Positions 705-35,094 of a DNA stretch of 35,094 nucleotides are shown piece by piece. The number at the start of each line of letters is the position of its first letter. The first letter of the stretch is position 1. The DNA comes from a virus. The stretch is taken from IMG/VR virus record IMGVR_UViG_3300031227_000206, positions 1 to 35,094 of that record; one strand, given 5' to 3'. The position numbers were made by a program, and so were the translations under genes. The notes under the pieces were generated by a model. It was not told the origin of the DNA. It did no database searches and saw only the letters and a list, made by a program, of their open reading frames with translations.

Positions 705-905
705 CTATCTGGCAACCCCATTTTTGATGTATTCTTTTTTCTCAAGATAGTTTCCTCCAGTAAAGATCCCTGTTGCTGCTGATAATGCTGTGAACCAGCC
801 ACCCCAAAGAAGAGGATCAGACCATTCACGAAACCAGAACCCTACTGCTACAATAACCAATATCCAGATTACCATCTGTGTTAGCTTCCATTTCTTATTC
901 TTCAT
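705..905 (-). CDS. Small membrane protein, candidate holin
   Basis: This 66-residue protein has a basic N-terminus (MKNKKWK), a strong hydrophobic segment at about residues 10-25 and a weaker glycine/alanine-rich one at about 35-52, then a charged tail (EKKEYIKNGVAR). Its ATG overlaps the stop of the preceding 141-residue ORF by one base (TAATG), so translation is coupled. It is the last gene of the operon and sits in a lysis cassette, which fits a holin or antiholin that controls inner-membrane permeabilisation. There is no family-specific motif, so the holin call comes from topology and place. Confidence 0.55.
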   Translation of the reverse strand: MKNKKWKLTQMVIWILVIVAVGFWFREWSDPLLWGGWFTALSAATGIFTGGNYLEKKEYIKNGVAR

Positions 906-1330
906 TATTTAAATCCCTGTATTATATTGATAATAATACTAGCAACCAATCCACCAATCAGAATCTTATTCGTCCCCAAGTAAAATTTCAATCGCTTCTG
1001 ACAAGCGGTCAACTGCAAAGATAGCTCGGTCGATACTATCTCCAGCTTCTCCAGCTTCCCCTTTCGCTCTGCCAAGAATCTCTCTAGCTTTTCTATTTCT
1101 TTCTTCCGTTCCAGTGAGAAAGTCTCTGAGCTTTCCTTCTGCTGTTTCAAGGTCTGTTCTAAATTGGATATCTCCAGCCCTAAGTTCTGAATTGATTTTT
1201 TCGAGTTCTGTAATTCTAGTTTGATCGTTAATATCTCCGATCTGATTTGATCTCCAATATCCGATGCCATAACCAGTACTGAAAAGAATAATAACAATAA
1301 CAATGACAATCCAACTTTTTTTCCAACCAT
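905..1330 (-). CDS. Coiled-coil membrane protein, possible spanin-type lysis protein (frame 1 of an overlapping pair)
   Basis: This 141-residue protein has a signal-like N-terminus (K-K-V-G then an L/F/V-rich stretch to about residue 22), a long charged coiled coil (about 28-115, heptad-like I/L spacing) and a C-terminal transmembrane helix (about 122-138). That layout resembles a unimolecular spanin, but there is no lipobox cysteine at the end of the signal (the context is V-M-A-S), so an export signal or anchor is more likely. Its ATG lies 8 nt after GGAGGG (1344-1339), and its stop overlaps the start of the 705-905 gene. It overlaps the 966-1334 ORF out of frame over almost its whole length. 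Both frames look like real proteins. Confidence 0.6.
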   Translation of the reverse strand: MVGKKVGLSLLLLLFFSVLVMASDIGDQIRSEILTIKLELQNSKKSIQNLGLEISNLEQTLKQQKESSETFSLERKKEIEKLERFLAERKGKLEKLEIVSTELSLQLTACQKRLKFYLGTNKILIGGLVASIIINIIQGFK

Positions 1331-1334
1331 CCAT
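966..1334 (-). CDS. Rz-like i-spanin candidate (frame 2 of an overlapping pair)
   Basis: This 122-residue protein has one N-terminal transmembrane anchor (about residues 7-26, I/V-rich, ending GYGIGYW) followed by a charged helical region (RITELEKINSELRA, later R-K-A-R-E-I-L) and a C-terminal GDSIDRAI...LSEAIEIL helix. Rz-type inner-membrane spanins have exactly this layout: short cytoplasmic tip, one membrane helix, periplasmic coiled coil. Its ATG starts 4 nt before that of the 905-1330 ORF and 4 nt after the shared GGAGGG. Spanins act in the envelope of diderm hosts at the last step of lysis. Homology is inferred from architecture. Confidence 0.6.
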   Translation of the reverse strand: MDGWKKSWIVIVIVIILFSTGYGIGYWRSNQIGDINDQTRITELEKINSELRAGDIQFRTDLETAEGKLRDFLTGTEERNRKAREILGRAKGEAGEAGDSIDRAIFAVDRLSEAIEILLGDE

Positions 1335-1338
1335 ACTA

Positions 1339-1344
1339 CCCTCC
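1339..1344 (-). promoter_or_regulatory. Shared Shine-Dalgarno for two out-of-frame start codons
   Basis: GGAGGG on the minus strand is followed by TAGT-ATG-G-ATG. It stands 4 nt before the ATG at 1334 and 8 nt before the ATG at 1330, and these start different frames. One ribosome site could therefore load either overlapping lysis gene. The 8-nt spacing is nearer the usual optimum. Confidence 0.65.
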
Positions 1345-1348
1345 AGAT

Positions 1349-1531
1349 TTATTCTTTCCTAAACATACTCATGATCGCTGTTGAAACTATGCCTAATAAA
1401 ATTCCTACAAACATATATATAACATCGGCATTGCCAGCTGGAATTGCTCTAAAGAATAAACCACCCATGGTTCCGGCAAGAAATAAGAGCATAGACATTA
1501 TTATGGTAAGCTTCATACTGTTTATCTTCAT
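1349..1531 (-). CDS. Small two-helix membrane protein, candidate holin
   Basis: This 60-residue protein has two predicted membrane helices (about residues 7-26 and 35-55) and ends in R-K-E. The ATG at 1531 was chosen because it overlaps the TGA of the upstream cysteine-peptidase gene as ATGA; a longer reading from 1549 would add six residues inside that gene. Two short helices with a small polar turn and a charged C-terminus, placed between a probable lytic enzyme and spanin-like genes, fit a class II holin. No conserved holin family motif was recognised. Confidence 0.6.
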   Translation of the reverse strand: MKINSMKLTIIMSMLLFLAGTMGGLFFRAIPAGNADVIYMFVGILLGIVSTAIMSMFRKE

Positions 1532-2097
1532 TGAATAAGGTGTCCCCATTTCTTAGCTTCCCCAACAGGCTTCACATGATTGGTAAAATCTTTTTTAGAC
1601 ATCCTGGTTCCATAGCCTGAATGATCTGTATACTCAGAATGGAAATCTCCCCAAGGGTCCGCTAGAACTAAATCATTATGATGTATACCTATTACACAAA
1701 ATGCATGCCCTGATAATCCTGGGAAAGAACCGGATGTCATTACAACTCTTCCCTGCTCAATTAGTTCAACATAATTCTCAAAAGTAAGATGAGTATTGAA
1801 ATTGGAAGCACGTTTCCCAGTGACGAAGAAGCTCAAATAACTTCCATACATTCCATGAATTTCCGCAGGCTCTACTCCTTTTGACCATCTGTACTTTTGG
1901 AGACAGAATTTCTCAGCATTCTCAGTGCTTAATAGCTTCATGAAATAATCATCATCGGCAAGCCCTGAACTATTACCATACATAATATTATTTCCTCGGA
2001 GAAACATGACATAAGATGTAGGCATGCAAGCTGCCATCGGCCTTATAGTATTATTCCTCTGGGTAAAGTAATCGTCTGATGAAAGATTTATTTTCAT
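1528..2097 (-). CDS. C39-like cysteine peptidase, candidate lysis enzyme
   Basis: This 189-residue protein has a papain-like/C39-type layout. Cys24 lies in M-A-A-C-M-P-T-S (the nucleophile position, like CGPTS of Peptidase_C39_2). His131 lies in GHAFCVIGI and Asp147 in LVLADPWGDF, and together they complete a likely triad. Without a signal peptide it would act in the cytoplasm or be released through a holin. Its place next to two holin-like genes and spanin candidates suggests an endolysin-type peptidase cutting peptidoglycan cross-links, though a virion maturation role is possible. The ATG at 2097 overlaps the stop of the upstream 37-residue ORF (ATGA); an upstream ATG at 2127 would add ten arginine-rich residues and is less likely. 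Confidence 0.7.
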   Translation of the reverse strand: MKINLSSDDYFTQRNNTIRPMAACMPTSYVMFLRGNNIMYGNSSGLADDDYFMKLLSTENAEKFCLQKYRWSKGVEPAEIHGMYGSYLSFFVTGKRASNFNTHLTFENYVELIEQGRVVMTSGSFPGLSGHAFCVIGIHHNDLVLADPWGDFHSEYTDHSGYGTRMSKKDFTNHVKPVGEAKKWGHLIQ

Positions 2098-2207
2098 ACC
2101 TCGTACCAATCTCCTCCGACAGAACATTTAAGGGCATCTGCATTTGCAGTAATCCTAAGAAGATATACAGTGCCTTGCTTTAAAATGGTGCCCTTCGTGA
2201 ATTTCAT
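2094..2207 (-). CDS. Tiny coupled ORF, unknown function
   Basis: This is a 37-residue ORF beginning MKFTKGTILKQGTVYLL and ending C-S-V-G-G-D-W-Y-E-V. The sequence alternates hydrophobic and polar residues like beta strands. Its TGA overlaps the peptidase start as ATGA, good evidence that it is translated. Its ATG lies 6 nt after a weak AGG and is inside the end of the 43-residue ORF above it, in another frame. It could be an independent small structural protein or the 3' part of a gene split by a frameshift. Confidence 0.5.
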   Translation of the reverse strand: MKFTKGTILKQGTVYLLRITANADALKCSVGGDWYEV

Positions 2208-2987: not shown

Positions 2988-3959
2988 TTATACTCCTGCT
3001 AGAGATTTACGAGCTACTGACAAATTTCCTCTATCTGTTGCATTTCCAGTAGTTAATGTCATATCAATATAATCAATTTGGTTCTTATATGATCCATCTT
3101 GGCCACCCCCAAAAAAACCATATACAGACCCTGATACTCCTGCTAAAGTTGTACGAGCTACTGACAAATTTCCTCTATCTGTTGCATTTCCAGTAGTTAA
3201 TGTCATATCAATATAATCAATTCGGTTCTTATATGATCCATCTTGGCCACCCCCAAAAAAACCATATGTTGGACCCGAAATTCCTGCTAGGCCACCACGA
3301 GCTACTGACAAATTTCCTCTATCTGTTGCATTCCCACTAGTTAATGTCATATCAATATAATCAATGACATCAGAATAACCAGTAGTAGGATTATAGCCAC
3401 CCCCAAAAAAACCATATGTTGGACCCGAAATTCCTGCTAAAACTATACGACCATCTGATAAATCCCCTCGATCTATTGCGTTTGCAATAATAGAAGTTAA
3501 CGTAATGTAATCAATAATATCAGAATAAGCAGCACCTGCCCTGCCTCCCCCAAAAAATCCATATACTGGTCCTGATACTCCTGCTAACTGGGCACGAACT
3601 ACTGACAAATCCCCATTATCTATTGCGTTTCCAGTGGTAAGTAATAAATTTATATAATCTAAAACAGTACTAGCAAAAAATCCATATATACGCTCATACG
3701 CACCTGCTAGATTACCACGAGCTACTGATAAATCCCCTCTATCTGTTGCATTTCCAGTAGTTAAACCCACGTCAATATAATCAATGACATTTGTTGTTCC
3801 ACCACCATAAAATCCCCAGACAACATATTTATAAAATAATTCCCATACTCCTGATACTTTAACATGACCATATAGAATTGTTTTCCAGACACCACTAATT
3901 TTAACTTGAAGGTCAGGGACTTGTTTCCAAGTTTCTAATACTTTTGTTTTAATACTCAT
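2988..3959 (-). CDS. Repeat-rich tail fibre or tip protein, Kelch-like beta-propeller
   Basis: This 323-residue protein starts with a short region containing two V-K-[IV]-S-G-V-W motifs, followed by six repeats of 41-50 residues. The repeat unit reads Y-G-F-F-G-G-G, a variable turn, IDYIDMTLTTGNATDRG, then L-S-V-A-R-x-x-L-A-G. Six blades with a GG pair and aromatic residues match a Kelch-type propeller. Such proteins occur at phage tail tips, where the top loops may bind host surface sugars or proteins. The two residues after the conserved Arg differ in all six repeats (GN, AQ, IV, GG, TT, KS), which suggests exposed, selected positions. A good AGAGG sits 5 nt before the ATG. Receptor binding is inferred. 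Confidence 0.7.
   Translation of the reverse strand: MSIKTKVLETWKQVPDLQVKISGVWKTILYGHVKVSGVWELFYKYVVWGFYGGGTTNVIDYIDVGLTTGNATDRGDLSVARGNLAGAYERIYGFFASTVLDYINLLLTTGNAIDNGDLSVVRAQLAGVSGPVYGFFGGGRAGAAYSDIIDYITLTSIIANAIDRGDLSDGRIVLAGISGPTYGFFGGGYNPTTGYSDVIDYIDMTLTSGNATDRGNLSVARGGLAGISGPTYGFFGGGQDGSYKNRIDYIDMTLTTGNATDRGNLSVARTTLAGVSGSVYGFFGGGQDGSYKNQIDYIDMTLTTGNATDRGNLSVARKSLAGV
3005..3860 (-). repeat. Tandem repeats of 123-150 bp within the fibre gene
   Basis: Copies of the motif CGAGCTACTGACAAAT or close variants (plus strand) begin at 3010, 3154, 3298, 3448, 3595 and 3718. The periods are 144, 144, 150, 147 and 123 bp, all multiples of three. The copies starting at 3010 and 3154 are almost identical over more than 100 bases, so the downstream end of the gene was amplified recently or is kept uniform by recombination. 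Confidence 0.9.
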
Positions 3960-4660: not shown

Positions 4661-6532
4661 CTACCAAAATTTTGAAATTCCTAAACTTTTCGGATCATCG
4701 GGGTCTGCAAAACCATCATCGTCAGTCCAATATCCAGCACGCTCTAAAGCATAACTTCTCTGAGCATCACTCCAATCCTTATCCCATATTAGCATAGTTG
4801 TGCCTCCAAGATATGATGGAAACAAAGCTACTATATCAGTCCAGAATCCAACATTGCTTCCAACACCTTTCATATCATCTAATTCTATTGTAATCACATT
4901 ATTGATATAATCTTTATTAATCATATAGATTTCAACAAGGCTTGAATCTACCCATTCAAAATTACTATCACCAGATCGCCTTTTGAATGATATTCTAATT
5001 CTATCACCAATATTCTTTGCAGCTAATTGGATCTTAGACTTGAATTTAATTCTTATAGTTTCTGTTTCATAAATCATTCCTAATCTACCTAATAGAATAC
5101 CCACTCCACCAGACGAGGACAATAAGGTTGGAATAGTTTTTGTCTTAGTAATCCCGTAAACTTCTTCTGTAATAGAAGAAGTTCTTTGGCTATAAGAATA
5201 TTTATCTTCACCCCAATTTTTACGCCATCCAATTCTGATAATTTTCCTGATATCATCTATCCTAGATAGACTACTAAAAGTACCTGTAATGATATCATTA
5301 AAATCCATTGAAGTAAGATCATCTTCAATTGTCGTATCCCATATCTTGATAGAATACTTACCATCATTATCATTGAAGAAATTACCCATACAAGACCTCA
5401 TTAGATCACTGATAATCTCTAACGAACTGACATATTCAGTTAATGCTATACCGCACGGGAATTGTTCTGCTTCGGTTACTGCTGCTGCTATTGCAGTAGT
5501 ATTATAATTATCTGAATTGTACGGGACAGAAAGAACATTGCTTGCAATAGATTTGATCTGCTCAATAGGATTATATTCATCAGCAATAATACTGACAGTG
5601 ACAGAATCCCCAGGAGAATAAGTTGCTGTTGCAAGTTTGAAACTGGCGTTCGATATACTAGCACTGGAATGAGTTACCGCTACATCATTGACATATACCT
5701 GAGTTATTGAAGTGACTGAACAAACTGAAGTATCAAGGATTTTGAAACTATGCAAACTGGTTGCAGATCCTAAAGCTAAAGTATTACAAACCAGTGGAAC
5801 CTTGAATACCGTTCCATAGATTAAGGGAATAGGTTTTCCTGAATCTTCAGAATCAAGGTTTGGATAATCAGTTGTGCTATAACTATTTTTAGGAATGTTA
5901 TCTTCAAAGTCTGTTTTATTATCTTCGTAATTGATTTTGAATTTTGAAGTAGAGTATGAAACATTGGTTATCTTACCAGCAAATTGTTTTCTGTATTCTG
6001 TATAGGGTAGATCTTCACCACCTAAAAGTATTGTTATTTTTTTATTATTCCAGCTATAATTTTTATACCTATTATCAAAGAATCCTGAACCGTTTAGTAA
6101 TTCAGCAACACCTGACGATATAATTGATACACCCCAAAATATTTCTGATTTCTGTTGTTTGATCACTGGCACATTATCAAGAATCCCTTCATAGAATATA
6201 TTATTCAATGTCACATTTTTAGTTGCATAATATAATTTATAGTTAGCAACTATGACATTCAAATAAGGTGTTCCTGAAGATGATTGCAAGTAGAGTTTCC
6301 CTTTGCCGTGAAACCATTTGCTGGCTTCTACTTCTGCCAGAGTATCAACCTCAGTTAATGTAACCCCATCTTCTTTTACACTGGTAACATCTACAATATC
6401 TATTGCGGAATAATATATAGTTCCTGAATACAAAGTCCAATCAGTCAACTGCTCACTAGGTTCTATCTCTGCCAAGAAAGTTTTCTTTGTCCCTGGAGTT
6501 GTTATCAGTTTTGCAAAGGTTGTTATGCTCAT
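4661..6532 (-). CDS. Tail hub/tip protein
   Basis: This large 623-residue beta-rich protein lies downstream of the tape measure and tip genes. The first 240 residues resemble the beta domains of siphovirus tip proteins (F-Y-E-G-I-L-D-N-V-P, NKKITILLGG, then F-A-G-K-I-T-N-V-S-Y). The later part has G-D-R-I-R-I-S-F-K-R-R and a segment describing OB-like strands, as in central hub or tail-associated proteins. The Cys residues around 250-275 are unusual. Its ATG overlaps the previous stop (ATGA). It probably closes the tail tube and carries the fibres. The exact family was not identified, but the tail role is well supported by size and order. Confidence 0.65.
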   Translation of the reverse strand: MSITTFAKLITTPGTKKTFLAEIEPSEQLTDWTLYSGTIYYSAIDIVDVTSVKEDGVTLTEVDTLAEVEASKWFHGKGKLYLQSSSGTPYLNVIVANYKLYYATKNVTLNNIFYEGILDNVPVIKQQKSEIFWGVSIISSGVAELLNGSGFFDNRYKNYSWNNKKITILLGGEDLPYTEYRKQFAGKITNVSYSTSKFKINYEDNKTDFEDNIPKNSYSTTDYPNLDSEDSGKPIPLIYGTVFKVPLVCNTLALGSATSLHSFKILDTSVCSVTSITQVYVNDVAVTHSSASISNASFKLATATYSPGDSVTVSIIADEYNPIEQIKSIASNVLSVPYNSDNYNTTAIAAAVTEAEQFPCGIALTEYVSSLEIISDLMRSCMGNFFNDNDGKYSIKIWDTTIEDDLTSMDFNDIITGTFSSLSRIDDIRKIIRIGWRKNWGEDKYSYSQRTSSITEEVYGITKTKTIPTLLSSSGGVGILLGRLGMIYETETIRIKFKSKIQLAAKNIGDRIRISFKRRSGDSNFEWVDSSLVEIYMINKDYINNVITIELDDMKGVGSNVGFWTDIVALFPSYLGGTTMLIWDKDWSDAQRSYALERAGYWTDDDGFADPDDPKSLGISKFW

Positions 6533-28345: not shown

Positions 28346-29749
28346 CTATACTTTATTTCTCCTCATACTACTCCATGTATAAGAAATTATTCCAGAAAGT
28401 AATACAGTCATTAGATTCCCAAGTAATGCTATTTGCCAATTACCAATCAATTTACCAATAACAAAAACAGGTAATCCAATTACAAGACTAGCTGATATAC
28501 CCCAAAATACACTTTCTCCATATAGCTTTTTACCGAAGATAGTTATTAATGTTGGTAGTAATGTAGCTGCCCTTAGTGTCCCATAGAATAAGAACAAATG
28601 AAGAATTTTTAATCCAGGTATGTTTGCTATCCCTATTCCTAGGATTGCTAATGCTATCATTGCTACTCTTGATACAGTTAGACTTGTTGATAATTTCCCT
28701 TTAATTCGTTTTGCAAAATCTACATTCACAAGACTTGCTACTGCACTAAGATTAGAATCCAGTGTTGATGCTAATCCAGAAATTATTAATATAATAACTA
28801 ATGGAACGATCACTGGAGGCAGATATTTTTGTAAAACCACTATATTGATTAACTGTGGATCTATCCCTGTTATCCCATCTGCAGCACCAATGAAACCCAG
28901 AAGTGCAAACAGTAATGGAACTATTCCGAATACCAATCCACCTACTATAAATGCTCTCTTTACTCTATCCTGTTTTATTGAAAAAGTTCTTTGCCAGCAT
29001 GTTTGATCACCAAATGGTCCTGCTAATAATCCAACAGTATTAATAATTCCAAATGTAAGCATGATTTGGATTCCTTCAGGACTGAAGAATTTGGTAGTTC
29101 CATTTAAACCACTAAGCCCCTGGATAACTTTTGGAAATCCTCCGGCATTATGAACTACAAAAGGAACTGCAATTATACCGACCAGTAAAATAAAACCCAT
29201 CTGTAGAAAATCTGTTACTACTGATGCTTTCATACCTGAAATAAGACTATAAGATAATGCTATTACTGCTAAGATAACAGTCATTAAAAAAAAGTTTGTT
29301 CCTGTTAACGATCCTATTATAGCAGCACCAGCAAGTAGTTGAACTGCAAAGCTACATATCTGTAAAACTGTAAACTGTATTAAATAAACAGTATGAGCTT
29401 TCTCACCATATTCACTAAACATTACTTCTGGCAATGTGAATCCATTTGGAAATCTGTTTCTAATCTTTACTGATGCAATCCCAAAAAATATAAGGCAAAG
29501 AACATTTGGTATAAAGAACCATGCAAATCCGACTAATCCTTGTTGATATGCTTTTTGTGCTGCAACAAATAAAGCCGGAGCCCAAATCCACGTTGCTGCA
29601 ATCGAAAATGATGCAACCAGTGTTTTAACATTTCGATTTGCTACTATAAATCCCTCAAAGCCTTTACTTCTCTTTCCTAAAAATATAGATATTACTATCA
29701 TAATAAGACCGTAAATACCTAATAACCCCAATACCGCTCCTGCATTCAT
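28346..29749 (-). CDS. Sodium/solute symporter (SSS family), copy 2
   Basis: This is a 467-residue integral membrane protein with about 12-13 hydrophobic helices. SSS marks include F-I-V-A-N-R-N (after helix 1), F-P-N-G-F-T-L-P-E-V, and the sodium-site helix ISGLASTLDSNLSAVASLVN. It would import a small solute with Na+. ATG 29749 follows GGAGA by 7 nt; an earlier in-frame ATG reads into the first symporter gene and is unlikely. It is about two thirds identical by eye to the tandem gene 29776-31200. Solute unknown (sialic acid, proline, sugars and pantothenate all have SSS carriers). Very unusual inside a phage late operon. Confidence 0.85.
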   Translation of the reverse strand: MNAGAVLGLLGIYGLIMIVISIFLGKRSKGFEGFIVANRNVKTLVASFSIAATWIWAPALFVAAQKAYQQGLVGFAWFFIPNVLCLIFFGIASVKIRNRFPNGFTLPEVMFSEYGEKAHTVYLIQFTVLQICSFAVQLLAGAAIIGSLTGTNFFLMTVILAVIALSYSLISGMKASVVTDFLQMGFILLVGIIAVPFVVHNAGGFPKVIQGLSGLNGTTKFFSPEGIQIMLTFGIINTVGLLAGPFGDQTCWQRTFSIKQDRVKRAFIVGGLVFGIVPLLFALLGFIGAADGITGIDPQLINIVVLQKYLPPVIVPLVIILIISGLASTLDSNLSAVASLVNVDFAKRIKGKLSTSLTVSRVAMIALAILGIGIANIPGLKILHLFLFYGTLRAATLLPTLITIFGKKLYGESVFWGISASLVIGLPVFVIGKLIGNWQIALLGNLMTVLLSGIISYTWSSMRRNKV

Positions 29750-29775
29750 AATATTTTCTCCTAAATATAATTTTA

Positions 29776-31200
29776 TCATCCCTCTGAATGATTTATTAAT
29801 ATTCTCATCCTGATACTGCTCCATGTATAAGCTATAATTCCTGAAGCAAGAACAGTAATTATATTTCCTGTAAGTGCCGTTTGCCAATTTCCTGTTAACT
29901 TTCCTATTACGAATGTTGGAATACCAATTACCATGCTAACTAAAATTCCCCAAAAAACACTATCACTATAAATATTTTTACCAAATATAGTCATTAGTGT
30001 TGGAAGAAGTGTTGCAGCCCGAAGTGTCCCATAAAATAGGAATAAATGTAATATTTTTAATCCAGGTATATTAGCAATGCCAATTCCTAATATTGCTAAT
30101 AAAATCATTGCTATCCTAGAAACATTAATATTTGTATTTATTTTACCAGTAATCCTTTTAAACAAATCTACATTAACTAAACTTGAAATAGCACATAAAT
30201 TTGAATCCATCGTTGAAGTTAAACCAGAAATAATTAGAATAACTATTATTGGAGTAATCACTGGAGGAAGATATTTTTGTAATACAATTATGTTAATCAA
30301 TTCTGGATTTATTCCAGTAATCCCATTTGCAGCACCAATAAATCCTAAAATAGAAAAAGCGATTGGAACTATACTAAATATTAGTCCTGCACTTATACAT
30401 GCTTTTTTTACTTTATCTTTCTTAATAGCAAATGATCGTTGCCAGAATGTTTGTTCACCTATTGGTCCTGATAATACCCCGATTGTAGTTATTATGCCAA
30501 AGGTAAACATAATTTCAATTCCTTCAGGACTGAAAAAATTAAGTCCTCTATTATGCATTCCACCAATGCCATTTATTACTGTAGAAAATCCCCCTGCATT
30601 ATGTAAAGCGATTGGAACTGCTATTACACTTACTAATACAATAAATGCCATTTTAATAAAATCTGTAATTATTGAAGCTTTTAATCCATATATTAATCCA
30701 GCCGTTAATGCCACTGCTGACAGAATAATAGTAATTAAAAAGAAGTTGATTCCAGTTAACCACCCCACTATAAAAGCCCCTGCAAGCAACTGCATAGCAA
30801 AAGAACATATCTGAACAATAGTAAATTGTAGTAAATAAATACTATGGGTTTTATTCCCATGCTCTGTAAGCATTAAATCTGGCAACGTAAATCCGTTTGG
30901 AAATTTCTTTCTAATTCTTGAAGCTGCTATTCCAAATAGAAATAGTGCAAAAACATTTGGAATAGAAAACCATGCAAATCCAACCCACCCATTTTGGAAA
31001 GCCTGTTGTGCTGAAATAAATAATACTGGAGGTAATACCCAAGTAGCAGCTATAGAAACAGAACCACCTAATGTTTTTATTTTTCTATTTGCTACCATGA
31101 AACTATTAAATCCCTTATTCTTTCTTCCTAAAAAAACAGATATTATAAGCATTAAAATACAATAAATTCCTAATAGTATTAAAGCTGATCCTACATTCAT
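29776..31200 (-). CDS. Sodium/solute symporter (SSS family), copy 1
   Basis: This 474-residue paralogue of the next gene has the same helix order and same-position motifs: F-M-V-A-N-R-K, F-P-N-G-F-T-L-P-D-L, ISGLTSTMDSNLCAISSLVN and the near-identical C-terminal IANIPGLKILHLFLFYGTLR. Differences cluster in loops and a few helices, consistent with duplication followed by divergence, perhaps to related solutes. AAGGA is 8 nt before the ATG. It begins 14 bases after the cytidylyltransferase stop and shares its transcript. No helix is broken and no frameshift seen, so both copies look functional. Confidence 0.85.
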   Translation of the reverse strand: MNVGSALILLGIYCILMLIISVFLGRKNKGFNSFMVANRKIKTLGGSVSIAATWVLPPVLFISAQQAFQNGWVGFAWFSIPNVFALFLFGIAASRIRKKFPNGFTLPDLMLTEHGNKTHSIYLLQFTIVQICSFAMQLLAGAFIVGWLTGINFFLITIILSAVALTAGLIYGLKASIITDFIKMAFIVLVSVIAVPIALHNAGGFSTVINGIGGMHNRGLNFFSPEGIEIMFTFGIITTIGVLSGPIGEQTFWQRSFAIKKDKVKKACISAGLIFSIVPIAFSILGFIGAANGITGINPELINIIVLQKYLPPVITPIIVILIISGLTSTMDSNLCAISSLVNVDLFKRITGKINTNINVSRIAMILLAILGIGIANIPGLKILHLFLFYGTLRAATLLPTLMTIFGKNIYSDSVFWGILVSMVIGIPTFVIGKLTGNWQTALTGNIITVLASGIIAYTWSSIRMRILINHSEG

Positions 31201-31214
31201 ACAAATTTTCCTTG

Positions 31215-31931
31215 TTATAATTTTGTCATTCCACCAAATGCTTTATTAAAATCCTCTACTGTTTGAGGATAATAACCTAACCATTTAATTACTTTATTCC
31301 AGAATAGCCTTTCCAAATTCCAATCAATACTCAATTTCATTGGTGTAACTTCTGGATCAGTAATGTGGCTGGTATCTATGATTAATGGTTTCAGGAAATC
31401 AGGTTTTTCTTTTGCTACAATCCAATACTGTTCGTATGAATATTTATGACCATAAGTATCCATAAGATATTCGTATTTGTCGTAAGCTGATTTTAGGTTT
31501 ATCCCTGCAACGAATCCTGGCATTGGAGCCAGGTTTCCAAATCCACCAACCGAATCATAATTCTCTGGATGGGCTTCTGCCAGCAACCCATCAATCAATA
31601 CCTGAACATACTCATTACTTACAAACGGACAATCCCCTGATATAGTCAATACGGCACCAAGATTAAAAGTTTCTATAGCATGCAAATCTCTTACTAATAA
31701 ATCATGCTCTGGACCACGATTAATTTCTGCTCCGGCTGCATAGGCAATTTTGCATAGTTCATTGTCTGAGGTGTTTGTGGTTGTTGATAAGATTATTTGG
31801 TCTAGGTTTTCTAAATATTGAAGCTTCTTAATTATCTGTTCAATTAAGGTTAAGCCACCAAGCATTCCAAGATGCTTTCTAGGATATCTTGATGAAGTAC
31901 TGCGAGCTGTAATAACGGCCCCTATCCTCAT
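31215..31931 (-). CDS. Cytidylyltransferase-like nucleotide-sugar enzyme (SpsF/NeuA-like)
   Basis: This 238-residue protein carries the nucleotidyltransferase signature A-V-I-T-A-R-S-T-S-S-R-Y-P-R-K-H-L near the N-terminus, then L-T-I-S-G-D-C-P-F-V (GDCP metal site) and C-terminal substrate-binding parts. Family members transfer CMP (or another NMP) to an acidic sugar such as a nonulosonic acid or a polysaccharide precursor. The closest pattern is SpsF of spore coat polysaccharide clusters. ATG 31931 follows GGAGG by 6 nt; an upstream ATG at 31949 would sit before the ribosome site. Placed between HNH and two symporters. Confidence 0.8.
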   Translation of the reverse strand: MRIGAVITARSTSSRYPRKHLGMLGGLTLIEQIIKKLQYLENLDQIILSTTTNTSDNELCKIAYAAGAEINRGPEHDLLVRDLHAIETFNLGAVLTISGDCPFVSNEYVQVLIDGLLAEAHPENYDSVGGFGNLAPMPGFVAGINLKSAYDKYEYLMDTYGHKYSYEQYWIVAKEKPDFLKPLIIDTSHITDPEVTPMKLSIDWNLERLFWNKVIKWLGYYPQTVEDFNKAFGGMTKL

Positions 31932-31987
31932 ATTATGCCTCCATTGCATATATTATTATTCAATATACATAATATCGGCAGTTTTTA

Positions 31988-33353: not shown

Positions 33354-34169
33354 TTATCCTTTTAATCCTCCAAATAGTCCCTTTACATAGTACTTCTGGA
33401 AACAAAGGAATACTATTAATATCGGCAAGAAAGCAAAGGTAGCTGCTGCAAAAGATTCTCCGTAATGTGGTAATGAATCCATCGCTGTTTTATGTACTAA
33501 AAACTGAACTGTACCCACTGGAAGAGTATATAATTTTTCTCTGCTAACAATAATAAACTGCCAGAGGAAATTTCCCCACTGACCTACAAATCCAATCAAT
33601 GCCATTGTCACTATTGCCGGAGCTGCTAATGGTATTATTATATTTGTGAATTTTCGTATTTCTCCACAACCATCTATAGTCGCTATATCTAAATAATCAT
33701 CCGGTATGGTAGACAGAAATTGCCGGAAGAAGAATAGCATGAAAACAGATATTCCAGACGGAAGCCACATTGCCATCAATGAATTATATAATCCGAAGAA
33801 TCGTATTAACTGAAACGATGGAATTAACGTAATCTGTCCAGGTATAATCATTGTGAATAAAAATAGATTAAACAGAATCTCCTTTCCCTTAAATCGTTTT
33901 TTAGCAAAAGCATATCCAGCCATTACGTTAATCGGGATTGTTAATAACACAGAGCATATTGATACTGTGATACTATTCCGTAACCATAGCCAAGCCGGGT
34001 ATTTGAATAGCTCCCTGTAATTATTAAAATTCATATCTTTTGAAATCAATGTTGGAGGGATTCTTTGCAGACCAACTGTTTCCTGAAAGCTACCGGATAT
34101 CATCCATACCAAAGGGATCAGTAGAATTGCTGCAATTAGAATTACTATTGTAAAACCGAAGTATTTCAA
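33354..34169 (-). CDS. ABC sugar-transporter permease, MalG-like
   Basis: This 271-residue, complete MalG/UgpE-type permease has six hydrophobic segments and the conserved cytoplasmic EAA loop D-I-A-T-I-D-G-C-G-E-I-R-K-F...I-I-P-L. The end (Y-V-K-G-L-F-G-G-L-K-G) is the usual carbohydrate-permease end. It starts with TTG 34169 overlapping the stop of the MazG-like gene, so its expression depends on that gene. It pairs with the MalF-like gene 34603-35094 to form a channel; a binding protein and an ATPase would also be needed and are not in the window. Confidence 0.9.
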   Translation of the reverse strand: MKYFGFTIVILIAAILLIPLVWMISGSFQETVGLQRIPPTLISKDMNFNNYRELFKYPAWLWLRNSITVSICSVLLTIPINVMAGYAFAKKRFKGKEILFNLFLFTMIIPGQITLIPSFQLIRFFGLYNSLMAMWLPSGISVFMLFFFRQFLSTIPDDYLDIATIDGCGEIRKFTNIIIPLAAPAIVTMALIGFVGQWGNFLWQFIIVSREKLYTLPVGTVQFLVHKTAMDSLPHYGESFAAATFAFLPILIVFLCFQKYYVKGLFGGLKG

Positions 34170-34423
34170 TTAGTCAGCTCCTTATCACATAACCCGATCA
34201 TAAAATGGCAAGCGTTTGCAAGGTCGGCACATTCAAGGCGGAGTAGTTTAATATTTACGCCTCTTTTAATCAATTCTTCGTGAACCTCTTCTGATTCTTC
34301 ATAAATCAAACTTGCCACGGCTTCAAAACTCATACTATCCCAACTATCTTTATGCCCATTCTCGACAAGTTTCTCCCTCTGTGCTTTATTACCAGCCGTA
34401 AATAATGCGTCAATATCTCTCAT
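34166..34423 (-). CDS. Phage-type MazG-like nucleotide pyrophosphohydrolase
   Basis: This 85-residue protein has helical E-E-S-E-E-V-H-E-E-L and L-E-C-A-D-L-A-N-A-C-H motifs, matching the ExxE...ExxD metal-binding arrangement of MazG-like enzymes. It has the short phage layout (a leading helix with N-G-H-K-D-S-W near residue 23). Such enzymes hydrolyse NTPs or alarmones, preserving nucleotide pools or damping stringent signalling during infection. It lies between the two permease genes, 2 bases after the zinc-finger gene. GGGAG is 7 nt before the ATG. Confidence 0.7.
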   Translation of the reverse strand: MRDIDALFTAGNKAQREKLVENGHKDSWDSMSFEAVASLIYEESEEVHEELIKRGVNIKLLRLECADLANACHFMIGLCDKELTN

Positions 34424-34425
34424 TT

Positions 34426-34602
34426 TTAAACTCCCTTATTAGTGTGCCCTATATGCCAATAATGACAAAATGGGCAACGGTAAACATCCAGTACACTCTG
34501 ATCACAATGAGTATGCTTTTTCTCCTGCCAAGCTTTTGATGCGGATATGTGTTTCGTTTTTCCTTCACATGTTCTTTGTTTATCAGGAATTTTTCTGGAC
34601 AT
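34426..34602 (-). CDS. Small phage zinc-finger protein
   Basis: This is a 58-residue protein with Cys12, then C-P-F-C at 43-46 and W-H-I-G-H at 49-53: one zinc-binding unit of the kind seen in many phages (VYxCPxCxxWHIGH). It starts immediately after the MalF-like stop with GGAG 6 nt upstream. Another frame over the same DNA (34449-34640) gives a 63-residue reading without motifs and is rejected. Function unknown; possibly RNA or DNA binding. Confidence 0.75.
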   Translation of the reverse strand: MSRKIPDKQRTCEGKTKHISASKAWQEKKHTHCDQSVLDVYRCPFCHYWHIGHTNKGV

Positions 34603-35094
34603 TTATCTCTCCTTAAATAATCTCCTTTGCAGAACACCAATAGTCCCGATTGCTATTGCAAACAGAACCCCAATCGCTGAAGCAAAGCCATACTTGCCGT
34701 ATCTGAAAGCCTGTAGATAGATCTCCAGTACTGCTGTATTAGTTCCATAGTTAGGACCACCACCAGTCATAATCATAGGATACAGAAAGATCTGTGAAAT
34801 CCCTATTATCTTAATGAAGAATATGAAACCTACTGTTGGGAGCATCAATGGTATGGTAATATACCAATCTTCTTGCCTCTCATTACATCCATCAATTTTA
34901 GCTGCATCGAATAGCTCAGTATCAATAGTTGTCATTGCAGCACTATATATTATTATTGTCATTCCCATATCAACAGATATTACAATCAGGCTAATTGCGA
35001 AGAACGCCTCTGGATTAGAACCCAACCAGAATATCTGCTTCCCTAATAATTGATTTATAAGCCCAGTAGGATTTAATAGCCATAACCATATCAT
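34603..35094 (-). CDS. ABC sugar-transporter permease, MalF-like, cut by window edge
   Basis: The last 163 residues of a MalF/UgpA-type permease are visible; the family is normally near 290, so the N-terminal part lies to the right of the window. The EAA loop reads F-D-A-A-K-I-D-G-C-N-E-R-Q-E...I-T-I-P-L-M-L-P. Four hydrophobic segments are visible, and G-G-G-P-N-Y-G-T is the usual P-loop of this family. The Met at the very edge need not be the start. It is the first gene of the string with the zinc finger, MazG-like and MalG-like genes. Confidence 0.9.
   Translation of the reverse strand: MIWLWLLNPTGLINQLLGKQIFWLGSNPEAFFAISLIVISVDMGMTIIIYSAAMTTIDTELFDAAKIDGCNERQEDWYITIPLMLPTVGFIFFIKIIGISQIFLYPMIMTGGGPNYGTNTAVLEIYLQAFRYGKYGFASAIGVLFAIAIGTIGVLQRRLFKER

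Follow-up and report, generated by a model that had tools for sequence, protein, structure and literature searches.

Two long open reading frames (ORFs A and B) of a phage genome begin within a few nucleotides of each other, in different frames, behind a single ribosome site. This raises the question whether both are genes and, if so, how one site would serve the two and what their products would do. The window analysed here is a stretch of 35,094 nt (positions 1 to 35,094 of IMG/VR record IMGVR_UViG_3300031227_000206), and the features of the locus are collected in Table 1. The original prediction described two lysis genes of 122 and 141 codons whose ATGs, 4 nt apart, follow one GGAGGG, the longer being coupled to the next gene by TAATG, and direct reading of the coordinates reproduces this layout exactly, with 5 nt between GGAGG and the start codon of A and 9 nt between GGAGG and that of B. 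The overlap comprises the whole coding length of A (>120 codons). The membrane-anchored coiled-coil character proposed for both products also agrees with the sequence, and the C-terminal transmembrane (TM) helix of B counts as independent evidence because it is encoded in the unshared tail. RNA folding at the two starts showed nothing unusual (z -0.6).

Table 1. Features of the A/B locus in the window (SD, Shine-Dalgarno sequence).
Feature	Position	Strand	Description
Small protein, 66 aa	705..905	-	two hydrophobic segments; ATG at 905 shares TAATG with the stop of B
ORF B, 141 aa	905..1330	-	stop 907-905; N-terminal hydrophobic helix, coiled coil, C-terminal transmembrane helix
B-only 3' tail	905..965	-	carries the entire C-terminal TM (KILIGGLVASIIINIIQGFK)
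ORF A, 122 aa	966..1334	-	stop 968-966; N-terminal transmembrane segment, then charged coiled-coil-like body; no Cys
ATGGATG heptamer	1328..1334	-	start codons of A (1334) and B (1330), in different frames and 4 nt apart
SD GGAGGG	1339..1344	-	sole SD for both starts; direct reading
Small protein, 58-66 aa	1349..1549	-	holin-like, two hydrophobic segments; just upstream of the pair; topology from sequence
Putative endolysin	1528..2127	-	phrog_10051 endolysin (7e-5); papain-like Cys...GH...DPWG motifs by eye (C39-like)

Whether both frames could be open by chance was addressed with the phage's own genes. Stop-free windows of at least 100 codons were absent from the shifted frames of 22 genes of this phage (0/4,815 per shifted frame), the longest off-frame open run being 97 codons. 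An exact probability model, giving the chance that the other frame is stop-free for a given protein and the codon usage of the phage, expected 9.8 stops in the frame of B given protein A and 9.2 in the frame of A given B; none was observed in either case (exact P=1.6e-6 and P=1.6e-5, respectively). The model is well calibrated, as 152 control windows of phage genes had a mean of 10.1 expected and 9.8 observed stops, with a minimum of 2. Silent changes able to stop the partner frame were available at 22 codons of A and at 22 codons of B. Of the Ile/Leu/Val codons of A that precede an A or G, 22 in number, not one has A or G as its last letter, compared with 54% in phage genes, and ATA is used for none of its 16 Ile codons, compared with 35% in the genome. 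Many stops occur in the third frame of the same strand and some in each of the three antisense frames; therefore the region is not simply stop-free. In the unshared tail of B, only 0.04% of dinucleotide shuffles were both open and equally hydrophobic.

A relative covering the locus was identified with the capsid protein as bait, which returned 19 loci, among which only IMG/VR 3300035130_000164 (45,450 bp) was found to include the lysis region. The tail protein and capsid of this phage are 47% and 53% identical, respectively, to those of the window phage, and its first 14.5 kb (hereafter L042) were analysed. The start region reads AAGGAG-ATTGC-ATGAAATG, with ATGs 5 nt apart, spacers of 5 and 10 nt and a modest RNA structure at the starts (z -1.35). 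Behind it lie B', starting at 2210 and 169 aa long, and A', starting at 2205 and 145 aa long, in the same frame relation as in the window. The order of the starts is swapped, B' coming first in L042 whereas A comes first in the window, so that the AUG nearest to the SD opens A in one phage and B' in the other. The chance of an open frame given the other protein is P=7.6e-10 for B' and P=7e-11 for A', and 294 control windows (147 per frame) never had fewer than 5 stops. As in the window, the B-type frame outlasts its partner, and the C-terminal TM of B, like that of B', is encoded entirely downstream of the partner's stop; none of 5000 dinucleotide shuffles of the B' tail was open and equally hydrophobic. 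A', like A, consists of a short N-terminal membrane anchor and a charged helical coiled coil. Like matches like best in pairwise comparison (B-B' 1e-4, A-A' 0.002, cross pairs weaker), scores that are soft because the proteins are coiled coils, and these weak scores suggest homology of A to A' and of B to B'. According to the original prediction, neither frame should be broken in most close homologues, and both are open in L042, the sole relative covering the locus. As a distant relative keeps the same arrangement, a chance origin of the paired genes is very unlikely.

The arrangement is confined to these two phages among the loci scanned (~546 kb), where ATG pairs no more than 5 nt apart with both ORFs longer than 100 codons were found in the window and L042 only. 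A search of IMG/VR for the pattern GGAGG-N(3-8)-ATGGATGGnTGGAA returned seven unrelated sites with the same SD-ATGGATGG motif, at which the second frame extended over only 4-18 codons. Direct searches with A and B found no homologue in IMG/VR, and A, searched alone, had none in GTDB genomes. In INPHARED no homologue of either protein was accepted, the lone match (E=1) being rejected as it sits in the tail region of a Helicobacter prophage. The endolysin and tail protein as bait returned no relatives, while the terminase returned two contigs 99.98% identical that end before the lysis locus, plus one remote contig of no use; A, B and B' had no match in the remaining capsid-bait loci, which are mostly fragments.

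Two contigs from other samples (L002 and L003) match the right-hand part of the window at ~99.98% identity and stop before the lysis region; one of them, within the portion retrieved, extends the record by ~6 kb upstream. Window positions 33354-35094 (-) together with L002 3626-7847 encode an apparently whole ABC importer, made up of a lipoprotein substrate-binding protein and two permeases; an HNH-type gene interrupts the set. The window also carries two tandem sodium:solute symporter genes (28346-31200, -; PF00474, 1.7e-18), 66% identical to each other, adjoined by a nucleotidyltransferase-like gene (31215-31949, -; CMP-sugar synthetase type by eye). Relatives of the symporters were present in phrog_20720 and on one faecal phage contig, and no host was obtained through them. 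Closer to the locus, a tail-fibre-like protein with ~50-residue repeats around YGFFGGG is encoded at 2988-3959 (-), and a tail hub protein at 4661-6532, with its counterpart at 12025-13941 of L042.

Two explanations would reduce the pair to a single gene. That only B is a gene and A spurious could be argued from the greater length of B, which reaches as far as the next gene and forms a complete hairpin in the model described below, and from its weak Rz-like and XhlA-like family matches, but this is highly improbable given the ordinary codon usage of A and not of B, the open frame of A given B in both phages, and the more specific Rz-like matches of A' in L042. The converse, that only A is a gene and B a chance open frame, could follow from composition: the T-rich anchor and A/G-rich coiled coil of A would give the shifted frames a hydrophobic start, a charged body and few stops. 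A hydrophobic N-terminal stretch was indeed present in 69% of the synonymous reshufflings that stayed open for 30 codons, so that the hydrophobic N-termini of the two frames mostly follow from the T-rich codons in the DNA that they share. In addition, the codon usage of A resembles that of the phage's other genes (+0.24 bits/codon), while that of B shows no adaptation (-0.15 bits/codon, among the higher values of shifted frames), and the frame of B stayed open in 19% of the trials in which A's own codons were permuted. That last figure arises because the bias lies in which codons A uses at all, and it is this codon set, devoid of ATA, that departs from the genome. Under phage codon usage nearly ten stops would be expected in the frame of B; moreover, its tail past A encodes a transmembrane helix and terminates in TAATG, and L042 repeats the whole arrangement. 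We therefore regard a chance origin of B as very unlikely. The codon usage in the window would fit an overprinting of B on an older frame A, a point that we do not press because the two frames of L042 score alike (-0.03 and -0.09 bits/codon).

In both phages, then, one SD stands before two out-of-frame starts (GGAGG-5nt-ATGGATG in the window, AAGGAG-5nt-ATGAAATG in L042), and both frames are long and, by P values calibrated on controls, kept by selection. Sequence statistics and conservation indicate that the A/B pair is very probably dual-coding, with both frames maintained, and strongly support two genuine, almost fully overlapping genes behind a single ribosome site. It is accordingly to be expected with high probability, on these sequence data, that both proteins are made.

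The closest mechanistic precedent for such a site is the rnpA/rpmH pair of Thermus, for which dual initiation from one site, consisting of GGAGG and AUGGAUG, has been established (Feltens et al. 2003, described in PMC9841429). It was the only described bacterial ambiguous one-SD start site before the E. coli examples of the latter paper (PMC9841429). The likeness to the window extends to the SD, to an identical AUGGAUG, to two full-length proteins in different frames and to the nesting of the shorter gene in the longer; the differences are that the Thermus genes encode a bacterial ribosomal protein and the RNase P protein, which have no sequence relation to A and B, and that dual expression, shown there, is predicted here. 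Two phage systems offer partial parallels. The dual-start holin of lambda (S107/S105) also has adjacent start codons, used in lambda to set the ratio of lysis proteins, but these are in frame, have two SD motifs and yield nearly identical products. The genes olg1 and olg2 of phage Fc02 overlap in different frames with near-by starts, but the starts are 25 nt apart, the genes are associated with superinfection exclusion and not with lysis, and the expression of olg2 is unproven (PMC9936078). In the literature searched, no phage gene pair was described that combines near-coincident starts, an overlap of more than 120 codons and a common ribosome site.

By analogy, a single SD would position 30S subunits over ATGGATG. 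Initiation at the first AUG would yield A, with its N-terminal membrane anchor and a periplasmic coiled coil, and initiation at the second, one frame over, would yield B, predicted to insert into the membrane as a coiled-coil hairpin and to carry a transmembrane helix at its C-terminus; the end of the B frame would be coupled to the small membrane gene that follows. In the window (5 and 9 nt) as in L042 (5 and 10 nt), both spacers are usable. Alternatively, B might be reached by early frameshifting in A or by re-initiation, for which a run of seven A (GGAAAAAAAG) near codons 5-7 of A could provide a site. This route appears unlikely, since B has its own ATG at a usable distance from the SD and, in L042, each frame has its own ATG close to the SD, with the order of the starts swapped. 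Provided that both proteins are made, the choice between the two starts is thus the route we would expect with good confidence from the comparison with Thermus, and it is plausible that the A:B protein ratio is set by that choice, as had been proposed.

As to function, the neighbourhood of the pair in the window is a lysis cassette by gene content: the endolysin-like gene and the 58-66 aa two-TM gene lie upstream in the same operon, and the 66 aa two-TM gene lies downstream. The pair of L042 is likewise in a lysis cassette, where a two-TM gene and an endolysin of the Amidase_2 type (4e-21) lie nearby. In the window, the 58-66 aa protein had no family match, family searches with the 66 aa protein gave no match above chance, and a single-sequence AlphaFold2 (AF2) model of the putative endolysin was unusable. 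Between the tail and lysis genes of L042 (4099-8159, -) there are three genes with CxxxCxxC-type radical-SAM-like motifs, recognized by eye. From the content of the cassette we infer a lysis role for the A/B pair, and the dual initiation and co-function of the two proteins are likewise proposed here on the grounds given above.

Spanins are the lysis proteins that the pair most resembles. Lambda Rz/Rz1 are also out-of-frame overlapping genes of a lysis cassette, one of them encoding an N-terminally anchored coiled-coil protein, but their o-spanin is a lipoprotein, and in about 70% of the embedded pairs its gene begins at 0.4-0.5 of the i-spanin gene (PMC6139136), whereas the window pair has no lipobox and the two starts are separated by 4 nt in the window and by 5 nt in L042. 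Both A and A' have the N-terminal TM and predicted periplasmic coiled coil of an i-spanin. An outer-membrane lipoprotein with a lipobox, as expected of an o-spanin, was not found in the window, there being no lipobox in A, in B or in any of its SD-preceded ORFs; the single Cys of B is remote from the N-terminus, close to where the coiled coil ends. The unimolecular spanin T1 gp11 shares with B a C-terminal transmembrane helix after a periplasmic body, but such a spanin also has an N-terminal lipoprotein signal, and B has the C-terminal TM only. Consequently, as no lipobox and no other lipoprotein candidate with an SD is present, a classical bridge from inner to outer membrane would have no outer anchor, and with the lipoprotein subunit missing in the window A and B do not constitute a two-component spanin as defined. 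In L042 uncertain lipobox-like sequences occur in A' (AWGC) and B' (LLVC), the former being close to AWAC, which has been proven to be a functional lipobox in a u-spanin (PMC6139136).

A' weakly matches the Rz-like spanin families phrog_739, phrog_89 and phrog_2466 (1e-4 to 5e-3), which five shuffles did not reproduce, whereas A of the window had no Rz-like PHROG match. B matched the Rz-like phrog_739 with E=4e-6, but one of five shuffles, which preserved the pattern, gave 3e-5, and this match was rejected as specific spanin evidence. The C-terminal half of B matched the XhlA-type phrog_1193 (E=0.0017), and a shuffle gave 0.0014. AlphaFold2 modelled B, with B' as the sole other sequence, as two long helices (2-66 and 73-140) forming a hairpin (pLDDT 87.8, pTM 0.65), the hydrophobic ends of which could both sit in one membrane; a Foldseek comparison of this model with viral structures returned generic coiled coils only.

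These data leave some room for a different function, in which both genes are real and their products form a complex of the inner membrane with an antiholin-like or XhlA-like role, regulating the holin or endolysin or assisting either of them, or else act on a host envelope for which no lipoprotein anchor is needed. The window pair without a lipobox would suit such a complex, as would the resemblance of B to phrog_1193, even though a shuffle scores the same, and a hairpin placing both ends of B in the same membrane. On the other hand, two small two-TM genes nearby already resemble holins, and A' combines Rz-like matches with a motif resembling a proven lipobox. We consider this function possible but less probable than a spanin-like one. 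The spanin-like character suggested by the original prediction is thus borne out in part: the lysis cassette and the weak matches of A' to three Rz-like families favour it, while a lipobox is missing from A and B and the match of B is shuffle-reproducible. On balance, the sequence evidence tilts towards a pair that acts like a spanin. A and B would be made together from one site and act in the envelope at the end of infection, after holin and endolysin, and by analogy they would work most like a spanin pair expressed like rnpA/rpmH. The explanation as a whole, combining two overlapping lysis-cassette genes, dual initiation and a spanin-like pair, is the one we favour with moderate confidence. 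The locus would then probably represent a conserved lysis module, in which two membrane coiled-coil proteins are encoded behind one SD whose two out-of-frame AUGs, 4-5 nt apart, compete.

Overlapping out-of-frame lysis genes are already known, and the new aspect of this locus is the shared start site with one SD. If the proposed reading is correct, the locus would follow Thermus rnpA/rpmH as the second full-length example in nature of this mode of expression. It would also encode a lysis machine of two proteins that has no classical lipoprotein subunit, in which the shared DNA codes for two coiled coils and the unshared tail for a transmembrane anchor. Such pairs would escape spanin surveys keyed to the lipobox as well as gene callers that forbid overlaps. 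Conserved in divergent phages, the arrangement may offer a natural and tractable system for studying how ribosomes are partitioned between adjacent AUGs.
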